This document shows positions 12,295 through 28,861 of a stretch of DNA of 64,000 nt, one piece after another. The notes beneath the pieces are model-generated. The model had not been told where the DNA came from, did not search any database, and saw only the letters and a program-made list of their open reading frames with translations. The translations under genes were made by a program, and so were the position numbers. The DNA is taken from assembly GCA_030532895.1 (NCBI GenBank), contig JAUNKF010000018.1, positions 1 to 64,000 on the forward strand. Reading direction: 5' to 3'. How positions within the stretch are numbered: the stretch's first letter is position 1; each line of letters opens with the position of its first letter. The DNA is from Lautropia sp. GTDB lineage: Bacteria > Pseudomonadota > Gammaproteobacteria > Burkholderiales > Burkholderiaceae_E.

Positions 12295-13736
12295 GCCGGC
12301 CGAGCGGGCGGGTTGCCGCCACCTGCCCTGACGGGCCATCCGAGTCGGCTGGCGGGCCGGCGCCTGCAGCGGGTAGACCGCTCATGTCTCGGGCATCGTC
12401 TGTGCTTATGCCGAAAACGCAGCATGACGGCCGTGCATTGCGGGCATTCATCAATGATGTCGAGATGGGCCTGTTGCAGGAGCAGGGCGGGTTGTGGCGC
12501 TTCTGCTATGCGCCCGGCTGGTTGTCTAATCCGGAGGGTTTTGCGCTCAGCCCCTTCCTGCCCTTGCAGTCAGAACCGCTGGTGGATGGCGCCAGTGAGC
12601 GGCCGGTGCAGTGGTACTTCGACAATCTCCTGCCCGAAGAAGGCCAGCGCACGCTGATGGCGCATGATGCGGGTGTGGGCGTGGAGGATGCCTTTGGCTT
12701 GCTTCAATATTACGGTGCCGAATCAGCGGGGTCGCTCACGCTCTTGCCGGTGGATGTAGTGGGTGAATTGCCGGGCGGGCTGCGGCCACTGTCTCATACG
12801 TCGCTGGAGGGGCGCATCCGCCGATTGCCGCGGGTGTCGCTCACGCAGGGGGCGGTCAAGCGCATGTCCTTGGCCGGTGCCCAGCACAAGTTGGCGCTGG
12901 TGTTGGCGTGCAATGCCTTGTTCGAGCCGCAGGATGCAACCCCGTCCACCCATGTGCTGAAGCCCGATCACCCGGATGCCGACTACCCGCATTCCGTCAT
13001 CAACGAGTTTTTCGTGATGCGCCTGGCAGCAAGCTTGGGCCTGCCGGTGCCGCCTGTGCATCGGCTGTATGTACCTTCTCCGGTTTATCTGGTCGAGCGC
13101 TTTGATCGTGTTCGGACATCAGCCGGGTGGCAGCGGCGGCATGTGGTGGATGCCTGTCAGCTGTTGGGTCTGGATCGCAGTTTCAAGTACAGCCAGGGCA
13201 GCATCGAGCGGCTTGCCGAGCTGGCCGCGCTTTGTCGCAGTCCGTTGCTCGCGCGCACGCAGCTTTTTTCGTGGCTGGTGTTCAATGTATTGGTGGGCAA
13301 TGCAGATGCCCATCTGAAGAACCTCAGTTTCCTGGTGTCACACGAGGGCGTGCAGTTAGCGCCGTTTTACGATTTGCTGAGCGTGGCTGCTTATGACACG
13401 CCGGCCTTCGACAGAACGGGCTGGCCTGTGCAGGTTCAATTGGCCTGGCCGATACTGGATGTGCGTCATTTCTCGGGCATCACGCGAGCGCTGCTGTTGG
13501 AAGCGGGGGTGCGGCTGGGGGTGACTCGGCGCGCTGCCGAGCGAATCCTGGATGAGCTGGTGCAGCAGATGCCATTGCAGGCGGATTTACTGCTGGCCGA
13601 GCTGGCCCGAGACAATGATGAGCTGCTGAAGCATCAGCCGGACTTGGGCAATCGGCTGGCGGGTGAGATGCGCTGCCTGCGCGTCATCCGCCATGCCATT
13701 TTGCCGGACATGGCGGCTAGGTTCCAGGTTGCTTGA
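12291..13736 (+). CDS. hipA: HipA-like serine/threonine kinase toxin
   Basis: Toxin partner of hipB. HipA kinases phosphorylate translation targets (GltX in E. coli) and cause growth arrest or persistence. The 481-residue frame has the N-subdomain (FINDVEMGLLQEQGG, WYFDNLLPEEGQRTLMA), the LAGAQHKLALVL loop, HVLKPDHPD with the ATP-binding Lys and FVMRLAASLGLPVP. The catalytic GNADAHLKNLSF (about residue 336) and the metal-binding FYDLLS (about 360) are intact. The start at 12291 overlaps hipB; it gives a roughly 30-residue low-complexity leader, and internal ATGs at 12384 or 12408 could serve instead. A 299-bp stretch of its 3' part (13323-13621) is repeated exactly near 27.7-29.1 kb. Confidence 0.92.
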   Translation: MSRPSGRVAATCPDGPSESAGGPAPAAGRPLMSRASSVLMPKTQHDGRALRAFINDVEMGLLQEQGGLWRFCYAPGWLSNPEGFALSPFLPLQSEPLVDGASERPVQWYFDNLLPEEGQRTLMAHDAGVGVEDAFGLLQYYGAESAGSLTLLPVDVVGELPGGLRPLSHTSLEGRIRRLPRVSLTQGAVKRMSLAGAQHKLALVLACNALFEPQDATPSTHVLKPDHPDADYPHSVINEFFVMRLAASLGLPVPPVHRLYVPSPVYLVERFDRVRTSAGWQRRHVVDACQLLGLDRSFKYSQGSIERLAELAALCRSPLLARTQLFSWLVFNVLVGNADAHLKNLSFLVSHEGVQLAPFYDLLSVAAYDTPAFDRTGWPVQVQLAWPILDVRHFSGITRALLLEAGVRLGVTRRAAERILDELVQQMPLQADLLLAELARDNDELLKHQPDLGNRLAGEMRCLRVIRHAILPDMAARFQVA

Positions 13737-13755: not shown

Positions 13756-14050
13756 GATGCTAGCACGGCTTGCCCTGAATGTTCTCTAACAAGCTGTCTA
13801 ACAACACGATTGCTGCTCTGCGATGACTGAAAGGGTCAGGTGCTTTGGCGTCTGCAACCTGGGAGATGCAGTTCAGCAGGGTACTAAAAGCTGGTCAGCT
13901 GTTACTGACGCCACACCGACTCAAAAGCAGCTCTGGTGGCCTCAAGCAAAAGTTCATAGCACGCTTTAGACAGCCCTATTAGAAATTGTAGGAGCGCTGA
14001 GAGGAGAAGTGCAGTACATTCGCCAGAGTAAGCACGATGAAGAGTTTGTT
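13756..14050. other. Intergenic boundary between host hipA and the low-GC cluster
   Basis: About 295 bp without a convincing gene. Base composition falls across it from host-like to AT-richer, so the left junction of the acquired block lies here or close by. I see no tRNA, integrase or attachment site. A promoter for the amine oxidase operon must be here or upstream, but no -35/-10 pair is clear. Confidence 0.5.
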
Positions 14051-15607
14051 ATGAACAGCAATTGTAGTAGACGAGACTTTGCAAAGTTCGTTGCGTTATC
14101 CGCGGCGTTAGGAACCCTACTTGATTCGCAAAAGGCGATGTCTAGAAGCTATGAGTACGACACTCACCTTTCGACAAGAAAAGAACTATCAACTGCAAGA
14201 GAGAAGATAATAGGCTTAAATGTTGCGATTATAGGATCGGGTGTTGCGGGTTTAGTGGCTGCATACGAACTAGCTATGGCAGGGGCAATGCCTGTCGTCT
14301 TTGAAGCAAGAGATAAAATCGGTGGTCGTGTCGAAACAGTTCGATCCGGAGATTATATTAATGAAGACGACATCTCCGTCCAAGTATGCGATTTTGATGA
14401 GCACCGTTCTTTATTTTTCAACACCGGCGCTGCTAGGATATCTCAAGAGCACGCTCTTATAATGCATTACTGCAGGGAGCTAAATGTTCCCATGGAGTTG
14501 GTTTGCAATGAAAACAAAGCCGCTTATTACTTTGATGAAGCTATTTCAAACAACAACGCTTTCAGGATACGCACTCTCCAATCCAGCATTCGAGGATGGA
14601 TTTCTGAGCTTGCTGCAAAGAGTGTGGTTGGATCTGGTGATAAGTATATGTCCTCGGCAGATTCCTCCGCTCTCCTGGAATTAATATCTGATTTCGGCGA
14701 TCTTAACCAGGATCTGAGGTTCGTGTCGACACCAAGGGGTGGAGTTTATTTTGACTGGAGTACAGGGCAGACTACTGGTAATTTTGAGTCAATACCGATT
14801 TCAGAAATTGTTAAACTCGAATCTTTTTCGAGGTACAAGCTAAATCTCGGGGAATTTTTAAATCAACAGGCGAGTATGATGCATCCTATTGGGGGTATGG
14901 ATAAGTTTATCCAAGCCTTCTACCAGAAGATTTCATCGAGAGTTTTTGTTCAAACTGAAGTTGTTTCCGTAAAAAGATATGATGGAAGATGTGTTGTACG
15001 GGTCAAAGATGCTTCTGGCCGGTTTTTTTTGAAAAAATTTGATGCGGTCATTGTAACAACCCCTCCCGTTATAATCAATGGTTTGGATATTGACATTTCT
15101 GAGGGTTTGAAGAGCGAGTTAGTCAGTAAAACAATGTCTAAACCATCCAAGGTGGCTTTTCAGTCGCCTAGATTTTGGGAGACTAGAGACGGAATATATG
15201 GTGGTGTTTCTTACACGAGTGATGAAATAACTATGCTCTGGTATCCTTCTAACGACCTAGGGAGTGAGCAGGGAATTATCGTCGGAGCTTATCATTTAGG
15301 GGTTTTTCCTGGGGAACTATTCTCATCTTTGTCCGTCAATGAAAGAGTTTCTCGCGCAATAACCCAGGGGGGTAAAATTCATCAAGGTTATGAGTCTTTT
15401 GTAAAAAAAGGAATCACTCGGTCGTGGGAAAGGACAAACTTTATTAAAGGTGGCTGGGCATTAGTAGGTTCGTCTTTTGAGTCGACAAGGCGCGCTGATG
15501 GTTCTATATTTTTCGCAGGGGATCATATGTCTAGTATGCCGGGATGGATGGAAGGATCAGCATTGTCTGCCCATTTGGCGGTTCGTGAGCTGTTGAAGGT
15601 TTTGTGA
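14051..15607 (+). CDS. Tat-exported FAD-dependent amine oxidase
   Basis: A flavin monoamine-oxidase family protein of about 518 residues. The start at 14051 puts a twin-arginine motif SRRDFAKF at residues 5-12, followed by a hydrophobic stretch, so the folded flavoprotein is probably exported by Tat. The FAD dinucleotide-binding motif VAIIGSGVAGLVAAYE is followed by a Glu in VVFEARDKIGGRVE. The C-terminal FAD motif reads FFAGDHMSSMPGWMEGSALS. It would oxidise an amine with oxygen, giving an imine or aldehyde plus peroxide; substrate unknown. It opens a three-gene + strand operon with the DUF2834 and kinase-aminotransferase genes. Codon use and GC are unlike the surrounding chromosome. A longer frame from 14009 would hide the Tat motif inside the protein and is less likely. 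Confidence 0.85.
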   Translation: MNSNCSRRDFAKFVALSAALGTLLDSQKAMSRSYEYDTHLSTRKELSTAREKIIGLNVAIIGSGVAGLVAAYELAMAGAMPVVFEARDKIGGRVETVRSGDYINEDDISVQVCDFDEHRSLFFNTGAARISQEHALIMHYCRELNVPMELVCNENKAAYYFDEAISNNNAFRIRTLQSSIRGWISELAAKSVVGSGDKYMSSADSSALLELISDFGDLNQDLRFVSTPRGGVYFDWSTGQTTGNFESIPISEIVKLESFSRYKLNLGEFLNQQASMMHPIGGMDKFIQAFYQKISSRVFVQTEVVSVKRYDGRCVVRVKDASGRFFLKKFDAVIVTTPPVIINGLDIDISEGLKSELVSKTMSKPSKVAFQSPRFWETRDGIYGGVSYTSDEITMLWYPSNDLGSEQGIIVGAYHLGVFPGELFSSLSVNERVSRAITQGGKIHQGYESFVKKGITRSWERTNFIKGGWALVGSSFESTRRADGSIFFAGDHMSSMPGWMEGSALSAHLAVRELLKVL

Positions 15608-15623
15608 AAATGCGTGGTGAGAA

Positions 15624-15941
15624 ATGATCAAGGTATATGCTCTGCTGAGTTTTTTTGGTGCTTTGGCTCCTTTGACTCCGTTTTGTTTTTTTCTTTTGGA
15701 AAACGGGGTTGATGTGAGCTTGTTCTTCGATGAATTGTTTTATGGCTACATTAGCACATTCTTTGCTATTGATGTGATAATTTCTGCGTTGGTTTTTATT
15801 GCTTTCGCGGTGTCAGAGTCCTTAAGGCTGCGAAAAACATGGATGATCTGGTCTATTTTAGGCTTGATAATCGGTGTCTCTTTTTCGCTTCCGTTGTTTC
15901 TGCTATTTCGTGAGATAGCAGTCAATAAAAGGATTGGGTGA
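15624..15941 (+). CDS. DUF2834-like small membrane protein
   Basis: A 105-residue hydrophobic protein with three predicted membrane segments (about residues 4-26, 45-66 and 74-95). The pattern FLLENGVDVSLFFDEL, FFAIDVIISALVF and FSLPLFLLFREI matches what I remember of DUF2834 proteins, which have no known function. It starts 16 bp after the oxidase gene, and its stop overlaps a possible GTG start of the following gene, so it belongs to the same operon. A role in anchoring or handling a lipid-like intermediate is only a guess. Confidence 0.72.
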   Translation: MIKVYALLSFFGALAPLTPFCFFLLENGVDVSLFFDELFYGYISTFFAIDVIISALVFIAFAVSESLRLRKTWMIWSILGLIIGVSFSLPLFLLFREIAVNKRIG

Positions 15942-16003
15942 GTTTTAGGTGGTTAACGCTTTGTAAGCGAATCTGTTGGAAGGGATGGGGTTTGGAGAAG
16001 ATG

Positions 16004-18625
16004 ATGACGGTTTTTGTCGATGTAGTCAAAATGCTATTCTTGGCTGTGGTTTTTCTATCTAAGTATTCCTATCGCAAGTTAGTAAAGAGCGAGTCCAAGG
16101 GGCGCCTAGTCGGAAGGTTGCTTCATGATTATTTTGTCGCTATGGGCCCGCTTTATATTAAGGTAGGTCAGATAATGGCTACAAGGAAGGATTTAATTTC
16201 AGAAGAAGTAGCCGAAGAGCTGTCGAATTTGCAGGATAGCACTAGTGCAATGAGCGAAGAGGTAACCAGATCGACTCTTTCGTCGTCTCTGTCTAATTCC
16301 TTAAGTAATATTTTTTCCGAGTTTGACTATTACCCTATTGCCAGTGCTTCTATTGCTCAAGTACATATAGCGCGACTCCGCACAGGTGAACAGGTTGCGG
16401 TGAAGATCGTCAAGAAAGGTGTCGAAAAGAGTTTAAGATCTAGTTTGTCTTTTTATCAGTTTCTTTTTTTTCTAGCAGAGAAGTTCAGTAGAACTGCTCG
16501 CCAGGTGGGTGTTTGCGAGAGATTTAAAGAGCTTGCCTCGGTTTTATTAGATCAAACAAATATGATCAAGGAGTTGGAGCAGCAGGAAAATGTAAGGAAA
16601 AACTTCGAAGGACATCGTTTTGTCAATATTCCTAAAGCATACCCTGAATTTTCATCTAAGGATGTACTTGTGATGGAGTACATAGATAGGGTATCCGGGA
16701 GAAAGCTGGAGTCTATCTCTTGTGATAGGAAGAAGCTCGCGCGGAGGCTTCAGGATGCAATTTATACGATGCTTTATATGCACGGTAAGTGCCACGGAGA
16801 CCCCCATCCGGGAAATGTATTTTTTGATTCTGATGGTGGTATAACCTTGGTGGATTTTGGAATTACTGTAGATTTGAGCGAGGACGAAAAGTGGGGTTTG
16901 TCTTCTTTTTATTACGCCTGTGTCAGGAAAGAGTGGGAATTGGCTGTTTCAAGGTTTACGGAGCACTTTGTCGAAGACAAGGAGAATATTTTTAAAAGCT
17001 GGAGCGATTATCAGTCTCAAATGGCGGTTGTATTGAAGAGACATTTCGAAGATAATTCAACACGTTGGTCTACGATTTCGTACTTTAGGGATGTTAACGA
17101 AATTTTGAATTTTTTTGGGGCTAGGTATACAGCGACCTTCACCAAAGTAGAGTTGGTTTTTTTGAGTGTTGAGGGATTTGCGTCTATTATTGACCCTAGT
17201 ATTGACATTTGGGAGAATGCTCGTTTGTTTACGGATAAATATTCTCCGTACATGAGTGCCGATATTAAGAGTAGACTTGATTTTTCGTTTGCTCAGTTAA
17301 TTCCTGGGTCACTACGGCTTCGGGATCAGGCTGAAAGCTGTTTGGTTGCGCCAACTCACATTCACCGATACTTTTTTCCAAGTGCATACCCTGTTTTTGT
17401 GGAAAAGGCAGAGGGAGCGCATATTTTCGATGTTGATGGCAACTGTTTTGTCGATTTATCCGGGGGGTACGGGCCTCATATACTAGGGTACAACCATCCT
17501 GTTATCAGGAACGCTTTGCACGAAGGTGTTGATAGCGGGGTAATAAACGCCGTTGGGCATAGGGAAGAAATTCTGTTTGCTGATAAGTTGGTTTCTGCGT
17601 TTTCCGGGAGCGAGAAGGTTGTGCTTTGTAATTCAGGTACTGAGGCTTGCTTGAAGGCGGTGCGTCTTGCAAGGGCTTATTCAAGAAAGACGCGCGTCGT
17701 CAAGTTTGAAGGTCATTACCACGGTTGGTCCGATCAGGGTATGGTTAGTTCTTGGTTCAGATTCTCAGGAGGAGAGTGTCATCCTGCTCCGATAGAGGGA
17801 TGTAAAGGTACTGACCCAAATGTAGTTATGTCCACTTTGGTTTTTCAGTATGGAGATATGGAGTCTTTGAGGGTTATAGAAAGTCTCGCCTCTGATATTG
17901 CTTGCGTTATATGTGAGCCAATGCCGTCGTCTATGGCTAAAGTCGACGAGAGGTTTTTGTTTGAGTTGCGGTTATGTTGTTCGAAGTCGGGCATTGTTTT
18001 GATTTTCGATGAGGTGGTGACTGGGTTTCGGGTGTGTTATGGTGGTGTTCAAACTATTGCGGGTGTTGTGCCTGATTTGACTGCTTTGGGCAAGATTATT
18101 GGAGGTGGCTTGCCTTGTGGGGCTGTTGTTGGGCGTGCGGATATCATTGACGTTGCAAAAAGTTCGGAGGATCCTTTTTTTGACTACGATAACAAGGCGT
18201 TTGTTGGCGGGACGATGAGTGGTAATTCTTTGACATGCAAGGCTGGGGTTGCGGTTCTCTCTGAGCTTGGGTCGTCCAAAGGATATTATGATGACCTATA
18301 TAAAAAAAGCGAATATTTGTTGAGTGAAATGAGGCGTGTTGCGAATAGATTAGATATTGATTGTTTCGTTGATGGCGGGAGGAGTATTTTTTCTTTGATG
18401 TTTGGACATAGAAAGTCTGCTGTTTACAGGAAGAAGCAGGCTGGTAGCAATTTTAAGGCGACTATAGCTCTCGCTTATTATATGCGCAAGGAGGGTGTTT
18501 ATATGCCGGAGCTTCATTCGTTTATGATCAGCATGGCTCATTCTTACCGTGATATTGATGTCGTTTTGGGCGCGTTTGAGAGGAGTCTTGTTGAAATGTC
18601 TGGCGATGGTTTTTTTGTTAATTAG
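16004..18625 (+). CDS. UbiB/ABC1 kinase - class III aminotransferase fusion
   Basis: One uninterrupted frame of about 873 residues joins two complete enzymes. Residues about 1-430 are a UbiB/ADCK-type atypical kinase: YIKVGQIMATRKDL (KxGQ motif), SASIAQVHIA, VAVKIVKKG, MEYIDRVSG, HGDPHPGNVFF and LVDFGIT. Residues about 455-873 are a class III PLP aminotransferase close to glutamate-1-semialdehyde aminomutase: GYGPHILGYNHP, NSGTEACLKAVRLA, GHYHGWSD, FDEVVTGFR and the Schiff-base Lys in LGKIIGGGLPCG (about residue 696). GGAG at 15994 supports the ATG at 16004; a GTG at 15938 overlapping the previous stop is possible. UbiB proteins help lipid-soluble quinone synthesis, so a membrane-held amino-lipid intermediate is plausible. 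Low GC indicates transfer. Confidence 0.88.
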   Translation: MTVFVDVVKMLFLAVVFLSKYSYRKLVKSESKGRLVGRLLHDYFVAMGPLYIKVGQIMATRKDLISEEVAEELSNLQDSTSAMSEEVTRSTLSSSLSNSLSNIFSEFDYYPIASASIAQVHIARLRTGEQVAVKIVKKGVEKSLRSSLSFYQFLFFLAEKFSRTARQVGVCERFKELASVLLDQTNMIKELEQQENVRKNFEGHRFVNIPKAYPEFSSKDVLVMEYIDRVSGRKLESISCDRKKLARRLQDAIYTMLYMHGKCHGDPHPGNVFFDSDGGITLVDFGITVDLSEDEKWGLSSFYYACVRKEWELAVSRFTEHFVEDKENIFKSWSDYQSQMAVVLKRHFEDNSTRWSTISYFRDVNEILNFFGARYTATFTKVELVFLSVEGFASIIDPSIDIWENARLFTDKYSPYMSADIKSRLDFSFAQLIPGSLRLRDQAESCLVAPTHIHRYFFPSAYPVFVEKAEGAHIFDVDGNCFVDLSGGYGPHILGYNHPVIRNALHEGVDSGVINAVGHREEILFADKLVSAFSGSEKVVLCNSGTEACLKAVRLARAYSRKTRVVKFEGHYHGWSDQGMVSSWFRFSGGECHPAPIEGCKGTDPNVVMSTLVFQYGDMESLRVIESLASDIACVICEPMPSSMAKVDERFLFELRLCCSKSGIVLIFDEVVTGFRVCYGGVQTIAGVVPDLTALGKIIGGGLPCGAVVGRADIIDVAKSSEDPFFDYDNKAFVGGTMSGNSLTCKAGVAVLSELGSSKGYYDDLYKKSEYLLSEMRRVANRLDIDCFVDGGRSIFSLMFGHRKSAVYRKKQAGSNFKATIALAYYMRKEGVYMPELHSFMISMAHSYRDIDVVLGAFERSLVEMSGDGFFVN

Positions 18626-18651
18626 TCGGCCCATGCAAACCTTGGTTCATA

Positions 18652-18677
18652 AGTTAAGTGTAACAGTATGACGTTGG
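18652..18677 (+). repeat. Solo IS30-family end remnant
   Basis: This 26-bp segment matches 24 of 26 bases of 27789-27814, the end of the IS30-type element downstream (shared core AACAGTATGACGTTGG). No IS30 transposase adjoins it, so it is a leftover end. Confidence 0.65.
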
Positions 18678-18812
18678 CACGTAGACTTCCCCCGTCCTTG
18701 ATATTAGCCCAAAGTCGTAATGTCCCCTTGATGCAGGATGGCCCCTCTGTGTCAGACTAGTTGCCGCCCCGATAGGATCCATCATAAGGGGGCGAGATGA
18801 CGAGGAAAGCCG

Positions 18813-19281
18813 ATGGCACGATATGGCCAGAAGTTCAAGGAACAGGCGGTGGCGAGAATGCTCCCACCGGGGAGCACCCCCTTGCAGACGCTGTCTGTCG
18901 AGTTGGGCGTGAGTGTGCCCACCCTGGAGCGCTGGCGCAGTGATGCGCTGTCCAGGCCCGCGCATGAGCGGGCCTGGACAGCGGCGGCACGTCATGATCA
19001 CGGCCGCCATGGATGAAGCCACACGCCATGCCTGGTGTCGCGAGCACGGGGTCTATCCACAGGAGTTGGCGCAATGGAAGGAGGCTGCCACCCAGGCGCT
19101 GGCCGCGCCCGAAGAGCAGCGCGCCAGCCCCTTGCAAACCCGGCGCGACCGCCAGCGAATTCGGGCTCTGGAGCGCGACCTGCGCCGCAAGGACAAGGCC
19201 CTGGCCGAGACCACCGCCCTGCTGGTGTTGTCCCGACAGCTCGAGACGATCTTCAAAGACCACGAGGGCGAGGCAGAATAA
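18813..19281 (+). pseudogene. IS3-family transposase OrfA, frame-broken
   Basis: The frame opens MARYGQKFKEQAVARML and runs through a helix-turn-helix (LQTLSVELGVSVPTLERW) and the ERAWTAAAR segment, then stops at 19016. The rest of OrfA (TAAMDEATRHAWCREHGVYPQEL onward to 19281) continues in another frame from about 18990. Family members as I recall them read through this junction, so a frameshift or small deletion has split the gene. A perfect 14-bp inverted repeat (18948-18981) lies just upstream of the break. Confidence 0.7.
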
Positions 19282-20338
19282 TTTGTCTCAAAGATCGTCA
19301 GGTTCTGGCCCGGAACATCCTGGAAGCGCAGCGCAGTGGTGCGCGCCTGGCCCTGGCTTGCCAGGAGGCCGGCATCGACATCCGCACCCTGCAGCGCTGG
19401 CAAGCCCGGGGCGGTCTGATCGTGGGGGGTCGGCGCCCCGAGGCCATACGCCCCAAACCAGCTCATGCGCTCAGTGACGAGGAGCGCCAGCGCCTGCTGG
19501 CCGTGGTCAACGAGCCGCGCTTTGCCGATCTGCCGCCGGCCCGTATCGTGCCGATGCTGGCTGACGAAGGCGTGTATCTGGCCAGTGAGTCCACTTTCTC
19601 GCGGGTCTTGCGTGCTGTCGGCCAGACCTCCCACCGCGGCCGGGCACGAGCACCTCGCCCTCAGCGCGCGCCCAGCACCCACGTCGCCACGGCACCGAAT
19701 CAGGTCTGGACCTGGGACATGACCTACCTGCCAACGACCGTGGCCGGGCGCTGGCTGCACCTGTACCTGATCATGGATCTGTTCAGCCGCAAGATCGTCG
19801 GCTTCGAGGTGCACGACAGCGATGTCGATGATCATGCCGCCCGGCTCGTGCACCGCACGGCCCTGGCCACCGGCATTGCCCTGAACGCCCAAAAGCCCGT
19901 CCTGCATGGCGACAACGGCTCGAGCTTCAAGTCCACGACCGTGCTGGCCATGCTGCACTGGCTCGGCATCAGCCCCTCGTACTCACGGCCCCGCGTCAGC
20001 GATGACAACGCCCATGTCGAAGCGCTGTTTCGCACCACGAAGTATCGGCCCGAATTCCCGGCCCACGGTTTTGTCGACCTGCATCAGGCCCGCCAATGGG
20101 CGGCTGATTTCGTGCACTGGTACAACCACGACACCGCCACAGTGGTATCCGCTACGTGACACCCGCCCAGCGCTACAGCGGCGAAGATCTGGCCATCCTT
20201 GAGGCCCGTCACGTGGTCTACGAGCAGGCTCGGGCACGTCACCCACGTCGTTGGTCAGGCCACACCCGGAACTGGCGGCACATCGATCATGTCACGCTCA
20301 ATCCCGAACGCGATGCGGTGGTTCAGGCCACGGTGTAG
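19281..20338 (+). pseudogene. IS3-family transposase OrfB with frameshifted C-terminus
   Basis: DDE integrase-type transposase. The catalytic residues are visible in VWTWDMTYLP (Asp), LHGDNGSSF (Asp) and DNAHVEALFRTTKY (Glu). The main frame ends early at 20159 after WYNHD. The expected continuation, HRHSGIRYVTPAQRYSGEDL, is in another frame and runs to 20338. A single missing C near 20131 explains the shift. The N-terminal start codon is also unclear: the family start position reads ATA here. The element is probably inactive without help in trans. Confidence 0.75.
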
Positions 20339-20381
20339 GGGCACCCGCTATCACAAGATATTCAACAGCAGGCTGCATGAA

Positions 20382-20573
20382 TCAGGCGGCAACTATCTTG
20401 ACATGCACCGCTTTCTTCGCATCATCCATCCAGGCCTCTATCTCTGAGGGCGGGACATCGTAGTTTCGGCTGGCCTCCGCCACCGTGGTCTTACCCTGGA
20501 TGATCTCCAGTACTAAGGCCGTCTTGCGCTTGGCCGTCCAGCGCTTGATTTCTTCGTTCATCAACATGCTCAT
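20382..20573 (-). pseudogene. Truncated IS3-type OrfA fragment
   Basis: A 63-residue frame with the transposase N-terminus NEEIKRWTAKRKTALVLEI and a helix-turn-helix (TVAEASRNYDVPPSEIEAW). Family OrfA proteins run to about 100 residues; this one loses similarity after WMDDAKK and soon stops. A possible element end (TGTAATGACCC on the - strand) lies near 20625, inside the IS4-type fragment. Confidence 0.65.
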
Positions 20574-20628
20574 CGGTGTTCTCCTCGAACGATAACACCT
20601 GAGCAGGTTTTTAGTGGGTCATTACAGA

Positions 20629-20829
20629 TTACCGGTACGCGCCCTTGATGTCGGCCCAGTTCTCCAATGCCGATGGTATCGACCCACCCACGTTCTGGCT
20701 CAGCTGTTTGATCACCTTGCCCAGCCGGGCCTTCAACCGTGCATCTGGCAACGCCGCCCCGCTGATCTCCTCGTCCATCCAGTCGTTGTCTGTCACCGGC
20801 TCTGATGCTACGCCCTGCTGACCCTTCAT
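20629..20829 (-). pseudogene. IS4-family transposase N-terminal fragment
   Basis: The segment NDWMDEEISGAALPDARL and SIPSALENWADIKGAYR match the N-terminal DNA-binding domain found in Tn5/IS4-type transposases. It stops right after AYR, where the family continues into the catalytic core, so only about 66 residues remain. The break coincides with the presumed end of the neighbouring IS3-type fragment. Confidence 0.65.
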
Positions 20830-20991
20830 CTCTGTCTGCCTTGATCCCTCTCATCCTGACTGCCATTATGCTCGCTGACAGGCGGGTGATCGGCTTGGTG
20901 AGGGAAGATGTGGGTAATCACAAGATCTGAGCGGGGTGGGCGGGGAGCAATCCCCGATCCTACCGCGACCTCTTGAGACCAAGTGTGTCTA

Positions 20992-22053
20992 TTAATAAAC
21001 AAAAGAAAATGCGCTAAAGGACATACCCGCACTACCGACCCACCCCACTATTTTATCCCCCCGACGAACCTTTCCTTCATCAATAGACAAAGAAAGCGCT
21101 GCGGGGATGGAGGCGGAAACAATATTACCCGTCGATGAAAATATCGATTTGTATATATCCTGCAGCCCAAGAATCCTGCAGAATCGCAACCAATCCCTAT
21201 ACGAGGACGTGTGCGTGAACAACGCTTTAGCATCAGAGAGATCCGCCTTAGACTTCAGCCTGCTCATAACTTCAAGTATATTTTCTTCGCCGAATTCTAT
21301 CAATTTGTCTCCGAACGAAGTGAAATAACCACATCCGTTAGCAGCTATTCTTGGCGAAGCCGATGCGTACCTATCAAAACCATGTATAGGTATGTTACAT
21401 AGATCCGCCAATCTAGGAGACGACGAAAACTCAAAGGCCCAATCTCCATGACTGGAATCAGCATTGCCTCCTTTTAAAATAGTGGCAGATGCCGCTTCGC
21501 CGAGCGTAAATGACGGAAAACTCCACTCCAGCGAATCGACATCTTTTATATTAAAAACCTCTGGATAAACAGGCCCTCCTGGAATCATATTAAATTCGGC
21601 GTTTACAATCATCACTCTATTATAAATACCGGCATCTAGCAGAAGTTTCGCCAAATAAACCCCCCTTACCCAGCTCATACAAGCATCTATTATGTCGAAA
21701 CACGCAACGGAATTCATCCCAAGCGAACTGGCCACATGATAAGCACCTCCAGGCTCAATGAAGCCCCGCCCTATTCCAACATAGATCAGCAAATCAATAT
21801 CGCCAACTGCCACTCCGCTTTCCGCCATAGCTAACGTAGCTGCATCACATACCAAGTCTATAGGCTTTTCATGGTCAAGAAGCCATTTTCGATGCTTAGA
21901 TCCGGTCAGATCAAGACAAAACCTAACTTTTTTTATCACAGCGTCCAAGACATCTGGAGACGTGTTTTTGCTATGAAACTTTATCTCCTTAATGATGTCG
22001 TCGTTGCTAACAACTTTACCTGGAAAAGCAACTTTCACTGATTCTATATACAT
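20992..22053 (-). CDS. KAS III-like beta-ketoacyl-ACP synthase family protein
   Basis: A thiolase-fold protein of about 353 residues, related to FabH-type synthases and acyltransferases. The catalytic triad is complete: Cys in DIIDACMSWVRG, His in FTHTSSYRDW and Asn in SSTGNIVSASIPAALSL. FabH enzymes condense an acyl-CoA with malonyl-ACP; relatives form ketones, esters or amides. The His motif deviates from the usual PHQAN, which favours a specialised reaction. The start at 22053 gives MYIESVKVAFPGKVVSND, a typical family opening; a frame extended to 22107 would overlap the ACP gene. It is the last gene of the - strand operon, 19 bp after the ACP gene, so its acyl substrate is probably carried on that ACP. 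Confidence 0.85.
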   Translation of the reverse strand: MYIESVKVAFPGKVVSNDDIIKEIKFHSKNTSPDVLDAVIKKVRFCLDLTGSKHRKWLLDHEKPIDLVCDAATLAMAESGVAVGDIDLLIYVGIGRGFIEPGGAYHVASSLGMNSVACFDIIDACMSWVRGVYLAKLLLDAGIYNRVMIVNAEFNMIPGGPVYPEVFNIKDVDSLEWSFPSFTLGEAASATILKGGNADSSHGDWAFEFSSSPRLADLCNIPIHGFDRYASASPRIAANGCGYFTSFGDKLIEFGEENILEVMSRLKSKADLSDAKALFTHTSSYRDWLRFCRILGLQDIYKSIFSSTGNIVSASIPAALSLSIDEGKVRRGDKIVGWVGSAGMSFSAFSFVY

Positions 22054-22072
22054 ACTCTCTGCCCCCGCGAAA

Positions 22073-22357
22073 TCAATCTTTAGAACAACAGCGCAGCAAC
22101 TCAGCAACCAAGCCGTTCACGTCTAGCTCTAGGTCGGAAAAAACCTCTCCAGAAATACTGACGCCGGTTTTAGCCTCCAGCAACGATTGCAATTTAAAGG
22201 CATCCATTGAACTCATGCCAAAATCATACAATCGGGAGTCCGTCCTGACATCGGCTTCTTTAATTTTCAAAACCTCAGAGACACTTCTCATGGCAATGTC
22301 TAAGTATGCATTCATTTTCTTGGAGTCGGAAATCGTGCCTTTCTCTTCTTGCGTCAT
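22073..22357 (-). CDS. Acyl carrier protein of the acquired cluster
   Basis: A 94-residue carrier protein. The phosphopantetheine attachment Ser lies in YDFGMSSMDAFKLQSLL, where the usual D-S-L core reads S-S-M, so the carrier is divergent. The helices before and after (IAMRSVSEVLKIKEADV, ELDVNGLVAELL) fit the four-helix fold. AGGAG 8 bp upstream supports the start. It sits between the fatty acyl-AMP ligase and the KAS III-like gene with 9- and 19-bp gaps, the classic order for an enzyme that loads a free fatty acid onto a dedicated ACP. No phosphopantetheinyl transferase is present in the window. Confidence 0.87.
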   Translation of the reverse strand: MTQEEKGTISDSKKMNAYLDIAMRSVSEVLKIKEADVRTDSRLYDFGMSSMDAFKLQSLLEAKTGVSISGEVFSDLELDVNGLVAELLRCCSKD

Positions 22358-22366
22358 ATGCTGCTC

Positions 22367-24109
22367 CTAGTCACCTTCAAATGATCTACTCCCAAGAATA
22401 TTCAACCTGTTCTCAAGCCAAAGCTTTTTGCTCAGCTTTCGTTGAATCTTTCCGCTAGTCGTCTTCGGGATTGATCCAGGTCTTAATATTCCAATATACA
22501 CCGGTTTTACACCATGCTCAATCGTTAGCCTCGAAAAAATGTTGGAAATAACATTATCATAATTCACGTCGCCATCAAAATATCGTTTTCTCTCGGCTAG
22601 GATTACTAATTCCTCCCTGTTTTTCTTAACGAAAGGAAATGCTGCCACAAATTCTCTGTTTATCAAATCATTAGCCTCGTAGACGGTTTTCTCCAAGTCC
22701 TGAGGGTAGTGATTTACTCCTCGAATAATAATCAGATCTTTCTCTCGTCCCGTGATATAAATCTCCCCGTTATGGAAGAAGCCAAGATCGCCCGTTCGAA
22801 CAAAATTTCGAGTCAATTCACTGTCACTTCCCTTGTCGGAAACCACTGTGGCTGCAAACACATGTTCACTTTCTTCCTGATTGTTCCAATATCCAGCCCC
22901 TACCCAGGGAGCTGAAACCCATATTTCGCCAACTCTTCTTTCGGGAAGCTCCCGCATACTTCTCGGATCTACTACTAGGACACAGCTTCCTTCCAGAGGA
23001 AATCCATTACTAACAAGAGGAATCAGGTCCGTTGATTCACTTTCTGGTTTTATTAATATTTCATTGTTTTTGTATTTGCTCTTGTCTAGCCAAATGGTAG
23101 TTGGAGTGGCATTGGCTTTATGTGCGGAAATTACCAGTGTAGTTTCTGCCATCCCGTAAGAAGGTCGATGAGCGGCTGGAGAAAAACCTGATTTGGAGAA
23201 CTCCTCGCTAAATGCTTTTAATGTGGAGAATTTGACGGGTTCTGCGCCATTGACAGCCACCTTCCAGGATTCAAGATTCAACTTATCAGAATTAATCCTA
23301 CTGTTCGCCTCGACGCAATGCATATATGCAAAGTCCGGAGCAGCACTATGGGTGGCTTTATAACGATCTATCGCGGAAAGCCAAAGCATTGGTTTCTTTA
23401 TAAATGAAGCTGGAGACATGAGAATCGCCTTCATGCCGTAGTACAATGGCTGGAGCACATTAAGAACCTGTCCTAAGTCATGAAAATGCGGTAGCCATGA
23501 AACCAAAACACTGCTGGAACTTATATCCCAAGCTTTTCCTAGAGCTTTGGAATGCTTAATCGTTGCAGCATGCGTCAACATGACCCCTTTGGGAGAGGAC
23601 GTTGAACCGGACGTGTACTGTAAATAGGCAAGAGAACTATTTCTGAAAGATGTTTGAGGTCTATTTTTACTTCTCTCGTCGATAAGCCAGTCTTCCGGCG
23701 AAATTACTTTAAGATCTTTCCCGTTAACCTCAATTTTTCCTCTGGCTTTTGGTAGATAAAACTTAGTGGTCATCGCCAAAGATGGTCGGCAGTCTTCGGC
23801 GATTTTTTCGATGAGCATCAATTTTCTTGAGTTCTGAGGGGCGTAAAGAGGAACGGCAACCACTCCAGAAAGCAGGCAGGCGTAAAAAGCTTTTATATAG
23901 TCAAGGCCCGGCCCATAGAGTAAGAGCACCCGATCCCCTGCGCTTGTCTCTTTTGACAAAGCATAGGATATTTTCGAAGCGCATTCAAAAAGCTCTGAAA
24001 AGGAAAGGCTCTCTTCCTCCTCGCCAAAGTCGTTTAAGAAAACAAAGGCCTTTTTCTCTTTAAGTGAAAAGGCCCTTTCTCTTAATAAAATTGCCCAATT
24101 GTTCTTCAT
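22367..24109 (-). CDS. Fatty acyl-AMP ligase (FAAL)
   Basis: An adenylate-forming enzyme of about 580 residues that activates a free fatty acid as acyl-AMP and transfers it to an ACP. Motifs: LQYTSGSTSSPKGVMLTH (P-loop), WLPHFHDLGQVLNVL, the FAAL-type VNGAEPV and YGMAETTL, RTGDLGFF, ITGREKDLIIIRG and the C-terminal Lys in TTSGKIQRKLSKKLW. I chose 24109 (MKNNWAILL) because AGAGGA lies 5 bp upstream; the longer frame to 24139 has no ribosome-binding site. The neighbouring ACP gene supports transfer to ACP and not to CoA. Low GC, as in the rest of the operon. Confidence 0.9.
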   Translation of the reverse strand: MKNNWAILLRERAFSLKEKKAFVFLNDFGEEEESLSFSELFECASKISYALSKETSAGDRVLLLYGPGLDYIKAFYACLLSGVVAVPLYAPQNSRKLMLIEKIAEDCRPSLAMTTKFYLPKARGKIEVNGKDLKVISPEDWLIDERSKNRPQTSFRNSSLAYLQYTSGSTSSPKGVMLTHAATIKHSKALGKAWDISSSSVLVSWLPHFHDLGQVLNVLQPLYYGMKAILMSPASFIKKPMLWLSAIDRYKATHSAAPDFAYMHCVEANSRINSDKLNLESWKVAVNGAEPVKFSTLKAFSEEFSKSGFSPAAHRPSYGMAETTLVISAHKANATPTTIWLDKSKYKNNEILIKPESESTDLIPLVSNGFPLEGSCVLVVDPRSMRELPERRVGEIWVSAPWVGAGYWNNQEESEHVFAATVVSDKGSDSELTRNFVRTGDLGFFHNGEIYITGREKDLIIIRGVNHYPQDLEKTVYEANDLINREFVAAFPFVKKNREELVILAERKRYFDGDVNYDNVISNIFSRLTIEHGVKPVYIGILRPGSIPKTTSGKIQRKLSKKLWLENRLNILGSRSFEGD

Positions 24110-24142
24110 GGTTTCCTCTCGAATATTCTGGTTGGTCATAAT

Positions 24143-25249
24143 TTATGGGAGAGAAAATTCTCCTCCCAGCTCATAACAATCTATGTGCTTGCTCGCGGAG
24201 CGAAAACTAGGAGGATGGTATGCTAGTGCTCTCACTACGCCCAACATGTACCTAAATCCAGGGTCGGTCAGAAAATTCATGCCGCCGGCCTCTTCTATTA
24301 TCGTAGCAGCGCATTCCATAATCCTTTTTTGAGTTTCAAATCTCACTAATAGTGAAGAGGAGACGTTGTATTCAGACAAATTTCCGTTATCTATTTCTTT
24401 TGCAATATTTTCCAGGGCCAGCATGCAAGTTCTTACTCCGGACAGTGCTCTCACCCTAGAGGCATCGTCTCCCCTTCCTCTGTCACAAATCTGCTCAAAC
24501 ATCGCGCTGAGCACCCCGAGGTAGCTGGCACTTATCATTATTTCGAACCATATAAACGCCGACGAAAGTTCTTTCGTTATGTTGAAGCTTTCGCCAAAAG
24601 TTGATACATTTTCACTGGGAACGAACACGTCTTCTAAGATGATTTCCACGTTCTCCGCTGCATCCAAAAAACCTTTTGCTCCGAACTCCATGATATAAAT
24701 ACCTTCGGAGTGAGAGGGGATTGTGGCAATGGAAAATAACTTATCTTTGCCATCTTCAAGCAACATGCTTGCTGTAAATATATCCATAGACCTACCAAGG
24801 CTGCATGGCTTCTTTTTTCCGGACACCAAAAAACCTCCTTTGGTTTTTTTTACCTTCATATCCGGGGTTTGGATGCTCGTGCTTGCGCGTCCGTCAGCAA
24901 ATCCCGATGCAACCAAAAGCTTCTCGCCTGCTATAAGTTTAAGGTGATTCTCCGTTTCCTCGGATCGAGGAATTGCGCATACAGTGCAGTTATGCATGTT
25001 GGCCGCAATCGCTAATGAGGGAGACCGGCTTCCCAACGCGAACTGAATCTGTAATAATTGAACTGCTGAGCACCCTTGTCCGCCGAACCTCTTTGGAACA
25101 GTCAAACCGCAGCCCCCATGTTCTTTATAACAAGAAAGAACAGGAGAATTCTTTCCTTCAAGCTCGGTTAAAGACCTTTGACAAAGAGACGAATCCAGTC
25201 CCGGCAGAAAAGATTCCATTGTGTCACGACATTTTTGTATTAGTCTCAT
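24143..25249 (-). CDS. Acyl-CoA dehydrogenase-like flavoprotein
   Basis: A 368-residue acyl-CoA dehydrogenase family protein. Recognisable parts are YKEHGGCGLTVPKRFGGQG near the N-terminus, the FAD/substrate segment (KKTKGGFLVSGKKKPCSLG), LEDVFVPSENV and the C-terminal helical domain (ATIIEEAGGMNFLTDPGFRYM). The usual C-terminal YEGT-like segment with the nearby catalytic Glu is not evident; AYHPPSFRSASKH stands there, so the chemistry may differ. FAAL-associated dehydrogenases are known to desaturate ACP-bound chains, for example in tambjamine synthesis, and that is my preferred role. A strong AGGAGG precedes the start. It is 3 bp from the longer possible start of the FAAL gene. Confidence 0.83.
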   Translation of the reverse strand: MRLIQKCRDTMESFLPGLDSSLCQRSLTELEGKNSPVLSCYKEHGGCGLTVPKRFGGQGCSAVQLLQIQFALGSRSPSLAIAANMHNCTVCAIPRSEETENHLKLIAGEKLLVASGFADGRASTSIQTPDMKVKKTKGGFLVSGKKKPCSLGRSMDIFTASMLLEDGKDKLFSIATIPSHSEGIYIMEFGAKGFLDAAENVEIILEDVFVPSENVSTFGESFNITKELSSAFIWFEIMISASYLGVLSAMFEQICDRGRGDDASRVRALSGVRTCMLALENIAKEIDNGNLSEYNVSSSLLVRFETQKRIMECAATIIEEAGGMNFLTDPGFRYMLGVVRALAYHPPSFRSASKHIDCYELGGEFSLP

Positions 25250-25261
25250 AATTCCTCCTGG

Positions 25262-25879
25262 TCATTTCCGGTCCGCTATTGTTGCAATCTCGAATCTGTA
25301 AGAAAAGGCGCGGTCTTTTTTGTTTAAAAAAGACATCATCTCATTATCGATCTCCAGATTATCCTCGTTTGCGTCGTCCACAGAGTAGTTTGTTATGAAG
25401 TTCCTGAAGCACAAGCGTCCATTGAGTCTTCCTCGAGTTGATATATTTTTCAAAATACTCATAAAATCATCCTTAGACAGACACGAAGTTATGTCTGAAA
25501 GGGAGAATTTATTGAACTTTTCATGCGGCATTTTTCCGCAGTATTCGACTATGTCTCCATTAACTATGGAGACTTTTGTTTTACACTTCTTTATTTGTTC
25601 GACAACATCCTCCTTTAAGAAGTGTGGGAGAGAATTTTTTTCGTTGTATTTTCCAGTGAACATGAACGTCAACCAGTCGCTTTCTTTTGCGAGGTGGTTG
25701 CAAAACGCATAGTCCAACGTCTTCAACATGTATCGACCAAGGTCTCCGACTTCAATGTTGATGTCATATCTCTTGTCATTCAAGATTAGCTTGAGAAGGT
25801 TTTTGTTAAATCCCTTCGATATTAATATGTTGTATAGCGGTCCTTTTATTTCTTTTTTAAAAAATTTCTCTCTGCTCAT
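25262..25879 (-). CDS. BtaA/DUF3419-like transferase, C-terminal part
   Basis: A 205-residue frame that continues the BtaA-like domain begun by the overlapping upstream gene, in the +1 frame. It carries WLTFMFTGKYNEKNSLPHFL and FNKFSLSDITSCLSKDDFMSIL, which resemble the central and C-terminal parts of DUF3419 proteins (tGRY...LPhYL and FNLSDIFEYM patterns, from memory). Joined after DEQREIF of the upstream part, the two make one protein of normal length (about 360 residues). The ATG at 25879 has no good ribosome-binding site. The sequence is very AT-rich. Whether it is made alone, by +1 frameshifting or not at all cannot be told from sequence. Confidence 0.65.
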   Translation of the reverse strand: MSREKFFKKEIKGPLYNILISKGFNKNLLKLILNDKRYDINIEVGDLGRYMLKTLDYAFCNHLAKESDWLTFMFTGKYNEKNSLPHFLKEDVVEQIKKCKTKVSIVNGDIVEYCGKMPHEKFNKFSLSDITSCLSKDDFMSILKNISTRGRLNGRLCFRNFITNYSVDDANEDNLEIDNEMMSFLNKKDRAFSYRFEIATIADRK

Positions 25880-26351
25880 CTAGGGTCTCCGAATTGAAAA
25901 TCCTTTCTATTGATCGACCGTAGAGGGTTTTAAATAAGGGGGCCATGATCTTGACATAGAACTGCTCGTGGCGGCCTTGAAAAATAATTCCGTTTTCAAT
26001 TTTTTTCATATTGTTCTTGAAATACATCCATGCCTCGTCGCTCAGTCTGTCTTTTAGGGAAAGAAAGGTATCTTTTCTGTCCATTCCTTCATTTCTGATT
26101 CCTAAAAAGTTTAACAAATCTCTGTAGCTCAGGGATCTGATGGCAGCAAGCTTGAGTTCAAATATAAGATTTTGACCAGCTGCATAATCTATCGTGCTTA
26201 AAGACGCAGGGTTCATGGAAAGTAAACTAAGACTTCTGCAGCCGCTTCCCGTGACAGACAGAACGTCGTCCACCGGGCTTATAGAGAGGGCCTTCATTTC
26301 TGAATCGGCGTCTTCGTCGCACGTGCTATAAAGAATCCACTTTTGATGCAT
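25857..26351 (-). CDS. BtaA/DUF3419-like SAM transferase, N-terminal part
   Basis: First gene of the - strand operon, 164 residues from the ATG at 26351 (AAGGA 9 bp upstream). It holds the SAM-binding half of a BtaA-like domain: YSTCDEDADSEMKAL, VLSVTGSGCRSLSLL (motif I) and DYAAGQNLIFELKLAAIRSL (motif II), then IIFQGRHEQFY and SETLDEQREIF before the stop. BtaA moves the 3-amino-3-carboxypropyl group of SAM onto diacylglycerol to start betaine-lipid synthesis; related enzymes use other acceptors. Here the acceptor may be an acyl-derived intermediate. The frame ends at a T6A6 run and the rest of the domain is in the next frame. The family call is from remembered motifs. Confidence 0.66.
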   Translation of the reverse strand: MHQKWILYSTCDEDADSEMKALSISPVDDVLSVTGSGCRSLSLLSMNPASLSTIDYAAGQNLIFELKLAAIRSLSYRDLLNFLGIRNEGMDRKDTFLSLKDRLSDEAWMYFKNNMKKIENGIIFQGRHEQFYVKIMAPLFKTLYGRSIERIFNSETLDEQREIF

Positions 26352-26483
26352 GATATTCAATCCTTGAACATAATGACTAGAGGTTATGAAATTTTGGATT
26401 CTTTGGCTACTATGAAATATAGTGGTAAGCCCTGCGAAATTCTGTGAACCGCCCCGGGTATCGAGGAGGCCCGTTGGTTTGAG

Positions 26484-27615
<1,132 letters not shown>

Positions 27616-27778
27616 GGCTCCATCTTCTCAAAGATTGGAGCCTCCTCAAAACTCGGGGCGATTCATTCAGCTGGCCCTTCGATCGGCTCGCCAGGCGGGT
27701 TTTCGGAGTGTTGCAGGGGAGACTCAGTTTCCTGGTGTCACACGAGGGCGTGCAGTTAGCGCCGTTTTACGATTTGCT

Positions 27779-28861
27779 TGGTCTCAAGAGTCAAGTGCAA
27801 CAGTATGACGTTGGGGGTCTGATGCGATGTTTCTGGCATGGGCTTCGAGAACCTGAGTCATGGCTTCCTCAGGTGTCTGCCAATCGAGTGTGGCGCGCGG
27901 CCTGGTATTGAGCAGATGGGCAATGTCTTTGAGACGAGTCTGGCTCAAGGTGGACAGGTCGGTGCCTTTGGGCAGAAACTGACGTAGCACCCCGTTTGTG
28001 TTTTTGTTAGAGCCTCGTTGCCAGGGCGCATGCGGGCCGAAGAACCAAAGATCGATGTTGAGCCGTTTTCTCTGCCACGGTCGTAGGTCAGGCTGTTTCG
28101 CAGGAAAGCGGGCACGTTTTTATCTGTCTTGAGAAGCCTTCCAGCGCGTCCTGTGCCGTGCAACCGTCCATGCGGCAGAGGATCCACGTAGCGTGTCTGA
28201 CGCTCGACGAGCACACGGACGGCGGAGCGGTTATAGGCGCCCTTGATCAGGTCGCCTTCCCAGTGGCCAGGCATCAGCCGGTCTTCAATGTCTGGGGGAC
28301 GATGGCGGATGCGCAGATCGGGCGGCACGAAACTGGTACTGGCTGCGGTGGTTCGGCGCGTACCTCGCTTGGGTTTGGCCTGACGCAAGGCATCCACGAG
28401 GGCCTGTTTGAGGGCACCACGAGGCTGGGCATAGATTTAGGCGTAGATGGTCTCGTGACTGACGAGACCGGGGCGTTTGGTGGCTGGCATACGCCGTAGT
28501 CTGGCAGCAATTTGCTTGGGAGACCAGAAGCGATAGACAAGACGGTCGTGGATGTATCGGTACAAGCGGGTGCCGGGCTGAAGCGCGGGTTGTCGCCGGC
28601 TATGCGAGCGCTGTTGCCGATAGTGTTGTGCAGCGGCCGAGGCGTCATAGGCAACGTCCTGACCCAGACGTTTCAACTCGCGGCTGATGGTGGAGGGCGA
28701 GCGCTTCAAGGTGCGGGCTATTGCCCGCACCTTGAGCTGATGGCTGGTGGCGATCATGATGAAGGCCCGGTCTTCCGGGGTCAGGTGCTGGTAGTGGCGT
28801 GGTGTAGACATGGCAATAGCTCAGATGGGGATGAGTGTTGCACTTGAAAGTTGAGTCTAAG
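27779..28861 (-). mobile_element. IS30-family insertion sequence in the hipA copy
   Basis: An element of about 1083 bp interrupts the second hipA copy. Its ends share an imperfect inverted repeat with the exact core TCAAGTGCAACA (27791-27802, and the complement near 28831-28842). The bases TTGCT flank both sides (27774-27778 and 28862-28866), which fits a short target duplication. The intact hipA gives the empty-site sequence, so the insertion point is certain. Confidence 0.85.
27784..28811 (-). pseudogene. IS30-family transposase, multiply broken
   Basis: The N-terminal part (28811-28437) carries the IS30-type helix-turn-helix, LTPEDRAFIMIATSHQ and RTLKRSPSTISRELKR, and reaches SHETIYA, where TAA replaces the expected Trp codon. 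The same frame then continues with IYAQPRGALKQALVDALRQ, PGHWEGDLIKGA (catalytic Asp) and LTYDRGRE (second Asp). Further frame changes occur after VERQTRY and after RGRE. The last part, [15 protein letters not shown] and [17 protein letters not shown], lies in the 27784-27990 frame. A stop plus several shifts make it non-functional. Confidence 0.85.

Follow-up and report, generated by a model that had tools for sequence, protein, structure and literature searches.

The noc cluster, described from four strains including the cyanobacterium Trichormus sp. NMC-1, is the nocuolin A cluster, and its NocF product is given as an aminotransferase (PMC5333925). According to passages of a review (PMC11837247), NocH is a fatty acyl-AMP ligase (FAAL) with an acyl carrier protein (ACP) used for C6 and C8 chains, as judged by in vitro data, and NocG is a ketosynthase that joins two NocH-bound acyl chains (hexanoic and octanoic) into a C13 beta-keto acid. 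In PMC10221466 the names given to derivatives of nocuolin A denote a dipentyl-dihydro-oxadiazine with a 3-oxopropyl ester arm, and the segment pentyl-C(=N)-CH2-CH(O)-pentyl fits the C13 chain minus CO2, the nitrogen sitting where the ketone had been. The window analysed here comprises 64,000 nucleotides of Lautropia sp. (assembly GCA_030532895.1, contig JAUNKF010000018.1, positions 1 to 64,000 of the forward strand) and lies on contig 28 of a 3.64-Mb genome. It contains a low-GC block (approximately 14.0-26.4 kb) that we interpret, with a probability of roughly 70%, as an acquired, rearranged and minimal relative of the noc core whose product would be less complex than nocuolin A, either an amine derived from lipid or a ring compound containing nitrogen. 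This estimate was slightly lowered because the fit to noc is imperfect. The cluster is divergent and minimal, and possibly damaged; its core gene combination is not new, being that of noc.

All the genes named in an earlier note, made from the sequence alone, are present. The left arm of the block (plus strand) encodes an FAD amine oxidase with a twin-arginine translocation (Tat)-like N-terminus (14009-15607; PF01593 over 79-529, E 1.1e-35), a small DUF2834 protein (15624-15941; PF11196, 71.7 bits) and the NocF homologue, in which an ABC1/UbiB kinase-like domain is fused to a class III aminotransferase of the glutamate-1-semialdehyde (GSA) type (15938-18625; PF03109, 184 bits; PF00202, 169.9 bits). 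The right arm (minus strand) encodes a 3-ketoacyl-ACP synthase III (KAS III)-like condensing enzyme homologous to NocG (20992-22107; PF08541, 38.4 bits, above the cut-off; PF08545, 23.6 bits, just below it), a stand-alone ACP (22073-22357; PF00550, 34.6 bits), a probable FAAL homologous to NocH (22367-24139; PF00501, 190 bits), an acyl-CoA dehydrogenase-like flavoprotein (24143-25249; PF02771, 25.3 bits, cut-off 22.9) and a BtaA-like DUF3419 protein lying in two frames. The C-terminal half of the latter (25262-25879) matches PF11899 positions 168-339 and the N-terminal half (25857-26360) positions 10-172, both above the cut-off. These family matches support the FAAL, ACP and dehydrogenase core proposed earlier. 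Neither a nonribosomal peptide synthetase (NRPS) nor a thioester reductase or transporter was found among the ten block open reading frames (ORFs) scanned, so within that set their reported absence held.

The closest known counterpart of the block is the locus of Trichormus sp. NMC-1 (L023). This 36.8-kb region (scaffold 345622-382378) runs bidirectionally from its centre. In one direction there are genes for a FAAL, a dehydrogenase-like protein (by eye), a 442-aa protein without a Pfam match, a polyketide synthase (PKS) of ketosynthase-acyltransferase-ACP (KS-AT-ACP) organization, an NRPS with condensation (C), adenylation (A), ketoreductase (KR), carrier and thioesterase (TE) domains, a lipase and a lectin-like protein. 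The other direction comprises DUF3419, a Rieske protein, a dehydrogenase, a FAAL, KAS III, a UbiB-aminotransferase, a flavin-dependent monooxygenase (FMO), a P450 and a methyltransferase; the Rieske, FMO, P450 and methyltransferase names were taken from Pfam matches of the Anabaena counterparts. The region fits what passages of PMC5333925 report for that strain: an NRPS (A, KR, TE), a KS-AT-ACP PKS, a lipase, a lectin-like protein, two FAALs, and a terminal P450 and methyltransferase. The window proteins are related to those of Trichormus by 53% identity over 865 aa (fusion), 46% over 353 aa (KAS III), 41% over 587 aa (FAAL) and 40% (dehydrogenase).

From gene order, our reading is that NocE is the FMO, NocI the dehydrogenase, NocJ the Rieske protein and NocK the DUF3419 protein, the last of which we take for the "unknown putative transferase" of the 2017 description (PMC5333925). 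Homologues of NocF, NocG and NocH thus occur together in the block and, by order, a dehydrogenase and the two-frame DUF3419 accompany them as in noc. The window differs in its stand-alone ACP (fused to FAAL in the cyanobacterial locus L030), its amine oxidase, which occupies the place of the FMO of cyanobacterial noc-type loci, and its gene order. The earlier claim that no known cluster joins these parts does not stand, since relatives of five gene families are found together in the Trichormus region matching noc. The match to a characterised cluster with a known product extends to the core and not to the whole block, and the view of it as an entirely undescribed cluster was given up once the Trichormus region had been matched to noc. 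AurF was also sought in three cyanobacterial genomes and not found; the result is uninformative, as NocO is only distantly AurF-like in print.

The KAS III enzyme retains Glu118, Cys143 and His299, which are conserved in 81 of 81 sequences, and Asn328, conserved in 80, with one gap. Among solved structures the best matches of its profile are 3row and kin, which we take to be OleA, and their LEP glutamate, whose role we likewise presume, aligns with Glu118. The window enzyme therefore carries the Cys-His-Asn set together with the OleA glutamate, and this residue set had suggested, before noc was found, that two acyl chains are joined. The relationship to the 3row group is remote (94 bits, in two pieces), and the window enzyme differs from OleA also in standing beside a FAAL and an ACP, with no OleBCD-like match noticed among the ten ORFs.

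The fusion protein is 46-55% identical to 25 aligned relatives. Columns invariant across the 26 fusion sequences include the ABC1 motifs, and the window protein keeps these columns; its predicted structure has a pLDDT of 81.0. Among 1677 plasmid records none covers 80% of this query, and the 20 listed cover about half of it, on the aminotransferase side. For KAS III, plasmid records gave 22 matches (best 42.6%). At E 1e-30 this KAS III was detected only in the window's own genome among 74 genomes of the family (16 genera, own included), and at 1e-40 in 3 of 369 genomes of the class, own included. The AMP-binding domain of the ligase is putatively of the FAAL rather than the CoA-ligase kind; its best NCBIfam matches are a model for the FAAL-like start of NRPS/PKS proteins and then FAAL models, all below cut-off. 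The dehydrogenase is 36-43% identical to seven cluster relatives and remote from PigA/RedW (41.2 bits with the PigA model, far below its cut-off).

A four-sequence KAS III alignment was searched against genome contigs, yielding 169 stretches and 117 relatives, of which the best 80 were kept. Up to 10 kb of DNA was taken on each side, with some contigs shorter, so the counts are lower bounds. At minimum aligned lengths of 500 (fusion), 400 (FAAL), 300 (dehydrogenase), and 140 and 150 residues (DUF3419 halves), the fusion was present in 25 loci, FAAL in 23, and the dehydrogenase and DUF3419 in 10 each. The last two share the identical 10 of 80 loci (hypergeometric p 6e-13, uncorrected for relatedness); all ten carry FAAL and nine the fusion, the tenth (L065) ending its contig at KAS III. 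The two arms, whose joint occurrence elsewhere the earlier note had left to be checked, co-occur in 9 of the 80 loci, plus L065 up to its contig end, an outcome in favour of that note: the arms belong together.

The ten full-core loci come from a gammaproteobacterial metagenome-assembled genome (MAG; L017), acidobacterial MAGs (L065, L066), Streptomyces (L019), Nonomuraea (L034), Nocardia (L021, L032) and cyanobacteria (L023, L030, L033). They cover Pseudomonadota, Acidobacteriota, Actinomycetota and Cyanobacteriota, seven of them and the window lying outside cyanobacteria; gene order varies, for example in L066. Across these four phyla the roughly 20 genes of the cluster come down to five that form the core, with DUF3419 as the constant companion of the dehydrogenase. 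Fusion matches of 500 residues are lacking in 55 of the 80 loci, many of them from Paraburkholderia, and the KAS III family is therefore wider than this pathway; on the KAS III tree the fusion label requires 10 changes. One falsely labelled fusion sequence (L026:16837-19341) was removed before the trees were built, and a 223-aa dehydrogenase match in L027 (23%) was excluded by the length threshold. In the open-licence PMC literature we found no report of the core outside cyanobacteria, of the quorum-sensing link of L017 or of the prodiginine-like settings described below.

The nearest kin of the window are L017 and L065, with which it groups in the KAS III (100/96) and FAAL (97/95) trees; in the fusion tree it joins L017 (90/92), and the DUF3419 tree, based on the N-terminal piece only, leaves it unplaced. 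L017 is a single run of genes for a LuxI-type synthase (PF00765), DUF3419 (373 aa, one frame), the dehydrogenase, FAAL (699 aa), KAS III, the fusion, an amine oxidase and DUF2834. The window amine oxidase and DUF2834 have relatives of 37% and 39% identity in this operon, and a Tat-like motif was seen by eye in both amine oxidases. Beyond LuxI lie DUF4902 and, on the opposite strand, LuxR (PF03472, PF00196), families that are also represented in L065. No gene of the LuxI, LuxR or DUF4902 kind was seen beside the window block, whose right edge is insertion sequence (IS) DNA; a LuxI search of the window's genome gave no match, but the control genomes gave none either, so absence was not shown. 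The L017 cluster is also low in GC (49.1% versus 64-65%). Small intact operons of this kind open the chemistry to testing outside cyanobacteria. Tundrenone, another quorum-sensing-linked product, was considered for comparison and dropped, as the passages of PMC6977074 hold no gene-by-gene comparison.

In the pathway that we propose, FAAL would load fatty acids onto the ACP, in line with the in vitro data on NocH cited in the review (PMC11837247). KAS III would join two acyl chains head to head into a beta-keto acid, which may lose CO2 to give a ketone; this step draws on the review's statement on NocG and, for the window, on homology and the conserved Glu, Cys, His and Asn. The UbiB-aminotransferase would convert the keto group into an amine, and the ABC1 domain, whose part in substrate handling is a guess, may extract or present the greasy substrate. 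Since the C13 chain bears its nitrogen where the ketone had been, the simplest role for the fusion appears to be to transaminate what NocG makes. A lipid amine is the likely kind of product, as the earlier note had suggested. The dehydrogenase would unsaturate an acyl chain. DUF3419, if it acts as we presume for the BtaA family, would add a 3-amino-3-carboxypropyl unit derived from S-adenosylmethionine (SAM); this step is doubtful in the window strain, where the gene lies in two frames, and would apply where the gene is intact. Finally, the probably exported amine oxidase may finish the molecule. The tambjamine pathway, with TamA (adenylation domain and ACP) and TamH (transaminase and thioester reductase) (PMC9594044), similarly loads a fatty acid on a carrier and then uses a fused aminotransferase in converting it to an amine; in the window KAS III takes the place of the thioester reductase and the aminotransferase is fused to UbiB instead of a reductase.

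The composition of the block argues for acquired DNA. Its left (14.0-18.6 kb) and right (21.0-26.4 kb) arms have 43.0% and 42.8% GC, the flanks 62.5% and 63.6%, and the lowest value outside the block among 391 overlapping 4.6-kb windows is 60.5%. The low GC content reported earlier was thus confirmed (43% versus 62-64%), whereas the single block was not: the arms are parted by a GC-rich insert (18641-20985, no strand assigned, 62.4% GC) that the earlier note had overlooked, as it had the two-frame state of DUF3419. The insert, which stands outside the pathway, contains an IS3-type transposase gene (19035-20159; NF033516, 162.6 bits, cut-off 160) and IS30-like end sequences (right end by eye), with 18647-18677 repeating an IS30-like element end at 87%. 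Horizontal acquisition and rearrangement are the best explanation of this structure.

Several observations weigh against the proposed reading. The window proteins are just 40-54% identical to those of Trichormus, and the enzymes of the two may differ in their substrates. A Rieske protein, a second FAAL, a PKS, an NRPS, a P450, a methyltransferase and an N-monooxygenase were all missing among the ten ORFs, to which the search of the genome was confined; since the block did not yield the PKS, NRPS, Rieske protein or second FAAL of noc, the window product is probably not nocuolin A. The window amine oxidase lies outside the FMO family of the cyanobacterial loci, and its pairing with DUF2834 is common to the window and L017 only. 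The window also sits on long branches (1.0-1.7), a feature flagged by a warning for the KAS III tree, and its DUF3419 gene is in two frames. The DUF3419 protein of L017 is 20.7-26.3% identical to 11 plasmid records, none of them named BtaA. At the thresholds set, 16 of the 25 loci with the fusion have neither DUF3419 nor the dehydrogenase, so the amine unit can do without both. The identification of the Trichormus region itself is imperfect: it has 17 ORFs of at least 100 aa in 36.8 kb, compared with 19-22 ORFs and 37.7-41.6 kb in PMC5333925, the printed noc kinase was not found in it, and passages of that paper place an "acyl-ACP reductase" among nocD-G where PMC11837247 has the ketosynthase NocG.

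Other products were weighed against this background. Malonate extension of the FAAL-loaded chain by KAS III, followed by transamination by the GSA-type aminotransferase, would give a carrier-bound beta-amino acyl thioester, as in the starters of iturin and puwainaphycin; the puwainaphycin cluster contains a FAAL and an aminotransferase (PMC4219810), and the MycA domain of mycosubtilin is among the solved relatives of the window aminotransferase (6kfm, E 1.5e-52). GSA aminomutases and then D-phenylglycine aminotransferase outscore MycA, however, no PKS or NRPS to accept such a starter was found among the ORFs scanned, the KAS III carries the OleA-like Glu, and a two-chain condensation is stated for NocG (PMC11837247), which together make this route unlikely. 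It is highly improbable, in our estimate, that DUF3419 acts in the manner of BtaA on a glycerolipid or fatty alcohol to give a betaine-lipid-like product whose chains are tailored by the other genes. Both halves do match PF11899, presumably the BtaA family, but DUF3419 accompanies FAAL and the dehydrogenase in 10 of 10 loci and the fusion in nine, no methyltransferase of the BtaB kind was found among the ten ORFs, and the L017 protein reaches at most 26.3% identity to plasmid-borne DUF3419 proteins. It is also possible, though we would not bet on it, that nothing is made in the window strain: the IS insert splits the rearranged arms, the two-frame DUF3419 has no other copy in the genome and the branches are long. 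Against such decay, the reading frames of the remaining pathway genes are open, the four residues of KAS III are in place and the fusion has retained its invariant columns. A dead cluster in this strain would be compatible with synthesis of a lipid-derived amine or ring compound by its relatives.

The DUF3419 protein bears on the origin of the 1,2,3-oxadiazine ring (N-N-O) of nocuolin A, for which the noc literature passages offer no explanation; the relatives found here let one ask about its nitrogens. The two window frames align consecutively to the two halves of the family, and no further DUF3419 match was found in the genome; they would represent either a broken gene or a sequencing error, the two being indistinguishable. 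An intact relative occurs in L030 (213.9 bits). The predicted structure of the L017 protein (pLDDT 84.9) gave only weak Foldseek matches to SAM-methyltransferase folds (best E 4e-4, TMq 0.20), which do not point to an acceptor. Structure and gene content lead us to hypothesize, speculatively and with considerable doubt, that DUF3419 supplies two parts of nocuolin A and its relatives, the second nitrogen and the 3-hydroxypropanoyl group. The NocG beta-keto acid, or another acid, would be O-alkylated with the SAM-derived aminocarboxypropyl group, and the homoserine amine would thereby be tethered beside the amine set by the NocF-type fusion. Formation of the N-N bond, oxidative loss of the homoserine carboxyl and ester cleavage could then leave HO-CH2-CH2-CO-N. 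Feeding with 15N-tryptophan, as reported in passages of PMC5333925, is neutral on this hypothesis. If it were true, the smallest form of a lipid pathway that makes an N-N bond would be found in the window-type and L017 operons, with L017 as a quorum-sensing-linked branch.

The KAS III and fusion genes also occur in prodiginine-like settings. In Nocardia altamirensis (NZ_BDAY01000008) FAAL, KAS III and the fusion come after genes for an alpha-oxoamine-synthase-like protein, an adenylating enzyme, a 351-aa protein without an NCBIfam match, RedH (1542 bits, cut-off 1350), a PigJ-like protein (387, cut-off 900), RedW (677, cut-off 650) and HapK. Four of four Nocardia genomes (L026, L027, L031, L038), the only Nocardia loci included here and picked because these families are common to them, have RedH above the cut-off within 11 kb of the FAAL/KAS III/fusion unit and a PigA-like gene, below its cut-off, nearby. 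RedH-like proteins also adjoin the unit in Microcystis L024 and Uabimicrobium L069, below the cut-off (886 and 818 bits). In Streptomyces MNU76 RedH and L019 are on different contigs (553,954 and 273,308 bases), and no RedH was found at 1e-60 in the genomes of L017 and L030. No RedL/RedK-, PigD/PigE- or TamH-like gene was noticed in the N. altamirensis region, where seven proteins were family-scanned; the unit perhaps stands in for RedL/RedK or PigDEB in the Nocardia clusters. These settings, in which an amine or pyrrole partner would be expected, suggest that the unit provides it, which agrees with a lipid amine as product, and that its condensing and aminating part is portable and has been placed in prodiginine-like clusters (RedH/PigC, RedW/PigA, PigJ). 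Unlike prodiginine and tambjamine clusters, the window block has no RedH/PigC ligase or bipyrrole genes among its ten scanned ORFs.

Further arrangements were seen among the related loci. Candidatus Uabimicrobium amorphum has a compact cluster (L117:9150-19999 and L118:1-4724) encoding a UbiB-aminotransferase, KAS III, a RedH-like protein, a 2044-aa FAAL-PKS-alpha-oxoamine-synthase protein, an FlxJ-like methyltransferase and a nitroreductase-family relative; its best PigA-like match lies far from the cluster, and the Microcystis L024 set is similar. KAS III and the UbiB-aminotransferase accompany a P450-family relative in Amycolatopsis azurea (L035), Streptomyces cellostaticus (L036) and S. 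inusitatus (L037), in none of which a FAAL was found at the 400-residue threshold; L035 has a reductive-aminase-like protein (PF21761) with a relative in L036. In Cupriavidus (L083, L095) the same pair lies amid ketosynthase-, MMPL- and dehydratase-like genes (by eye), a setting that looks like an aryl-polyene type. On a Paraburkholderia caribensis plasmid the gene for a member of this KAS III family (L012:15004-16041; 43%) immediately precedes one annotated as a response regulator, with no FAAL or aminotransferase match in the 31-kb stretch around it; this may be a signal synthase with its sensor.

The right border of the block is formed by an IS3-family element (26484-27615, minus strand) with rve and HTH_21 domains in 26484-27338, a second frame at 27292-27615 (by eye) and an ALIL pseudoknot at 27221-27337. 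Beyond it, on the plus strand, lies a second copy of the hipA 3′ end (27723-29224) split by an element (27777-28861) with an HTH_38 domain and TTGCT on either side, presumably of the IS30-like kind. This copy is identical to 13323-13673 over 56 nt and 96% identical over 300 nt. An intact hipA-like gene (PF07804; 12291-13736) is present on the other side of the block, so the hipA 3′ end is duplicated around the acquired DNA, which may record entry of the block or a later rearrangement. Further upstream, 6024-11741 (minus strand) encodes a single protein of 1905 aa in which a UvrD helicase comes after a DEAD/helicase-C unit (PF00270, PF00271, PF00580, PF13361).

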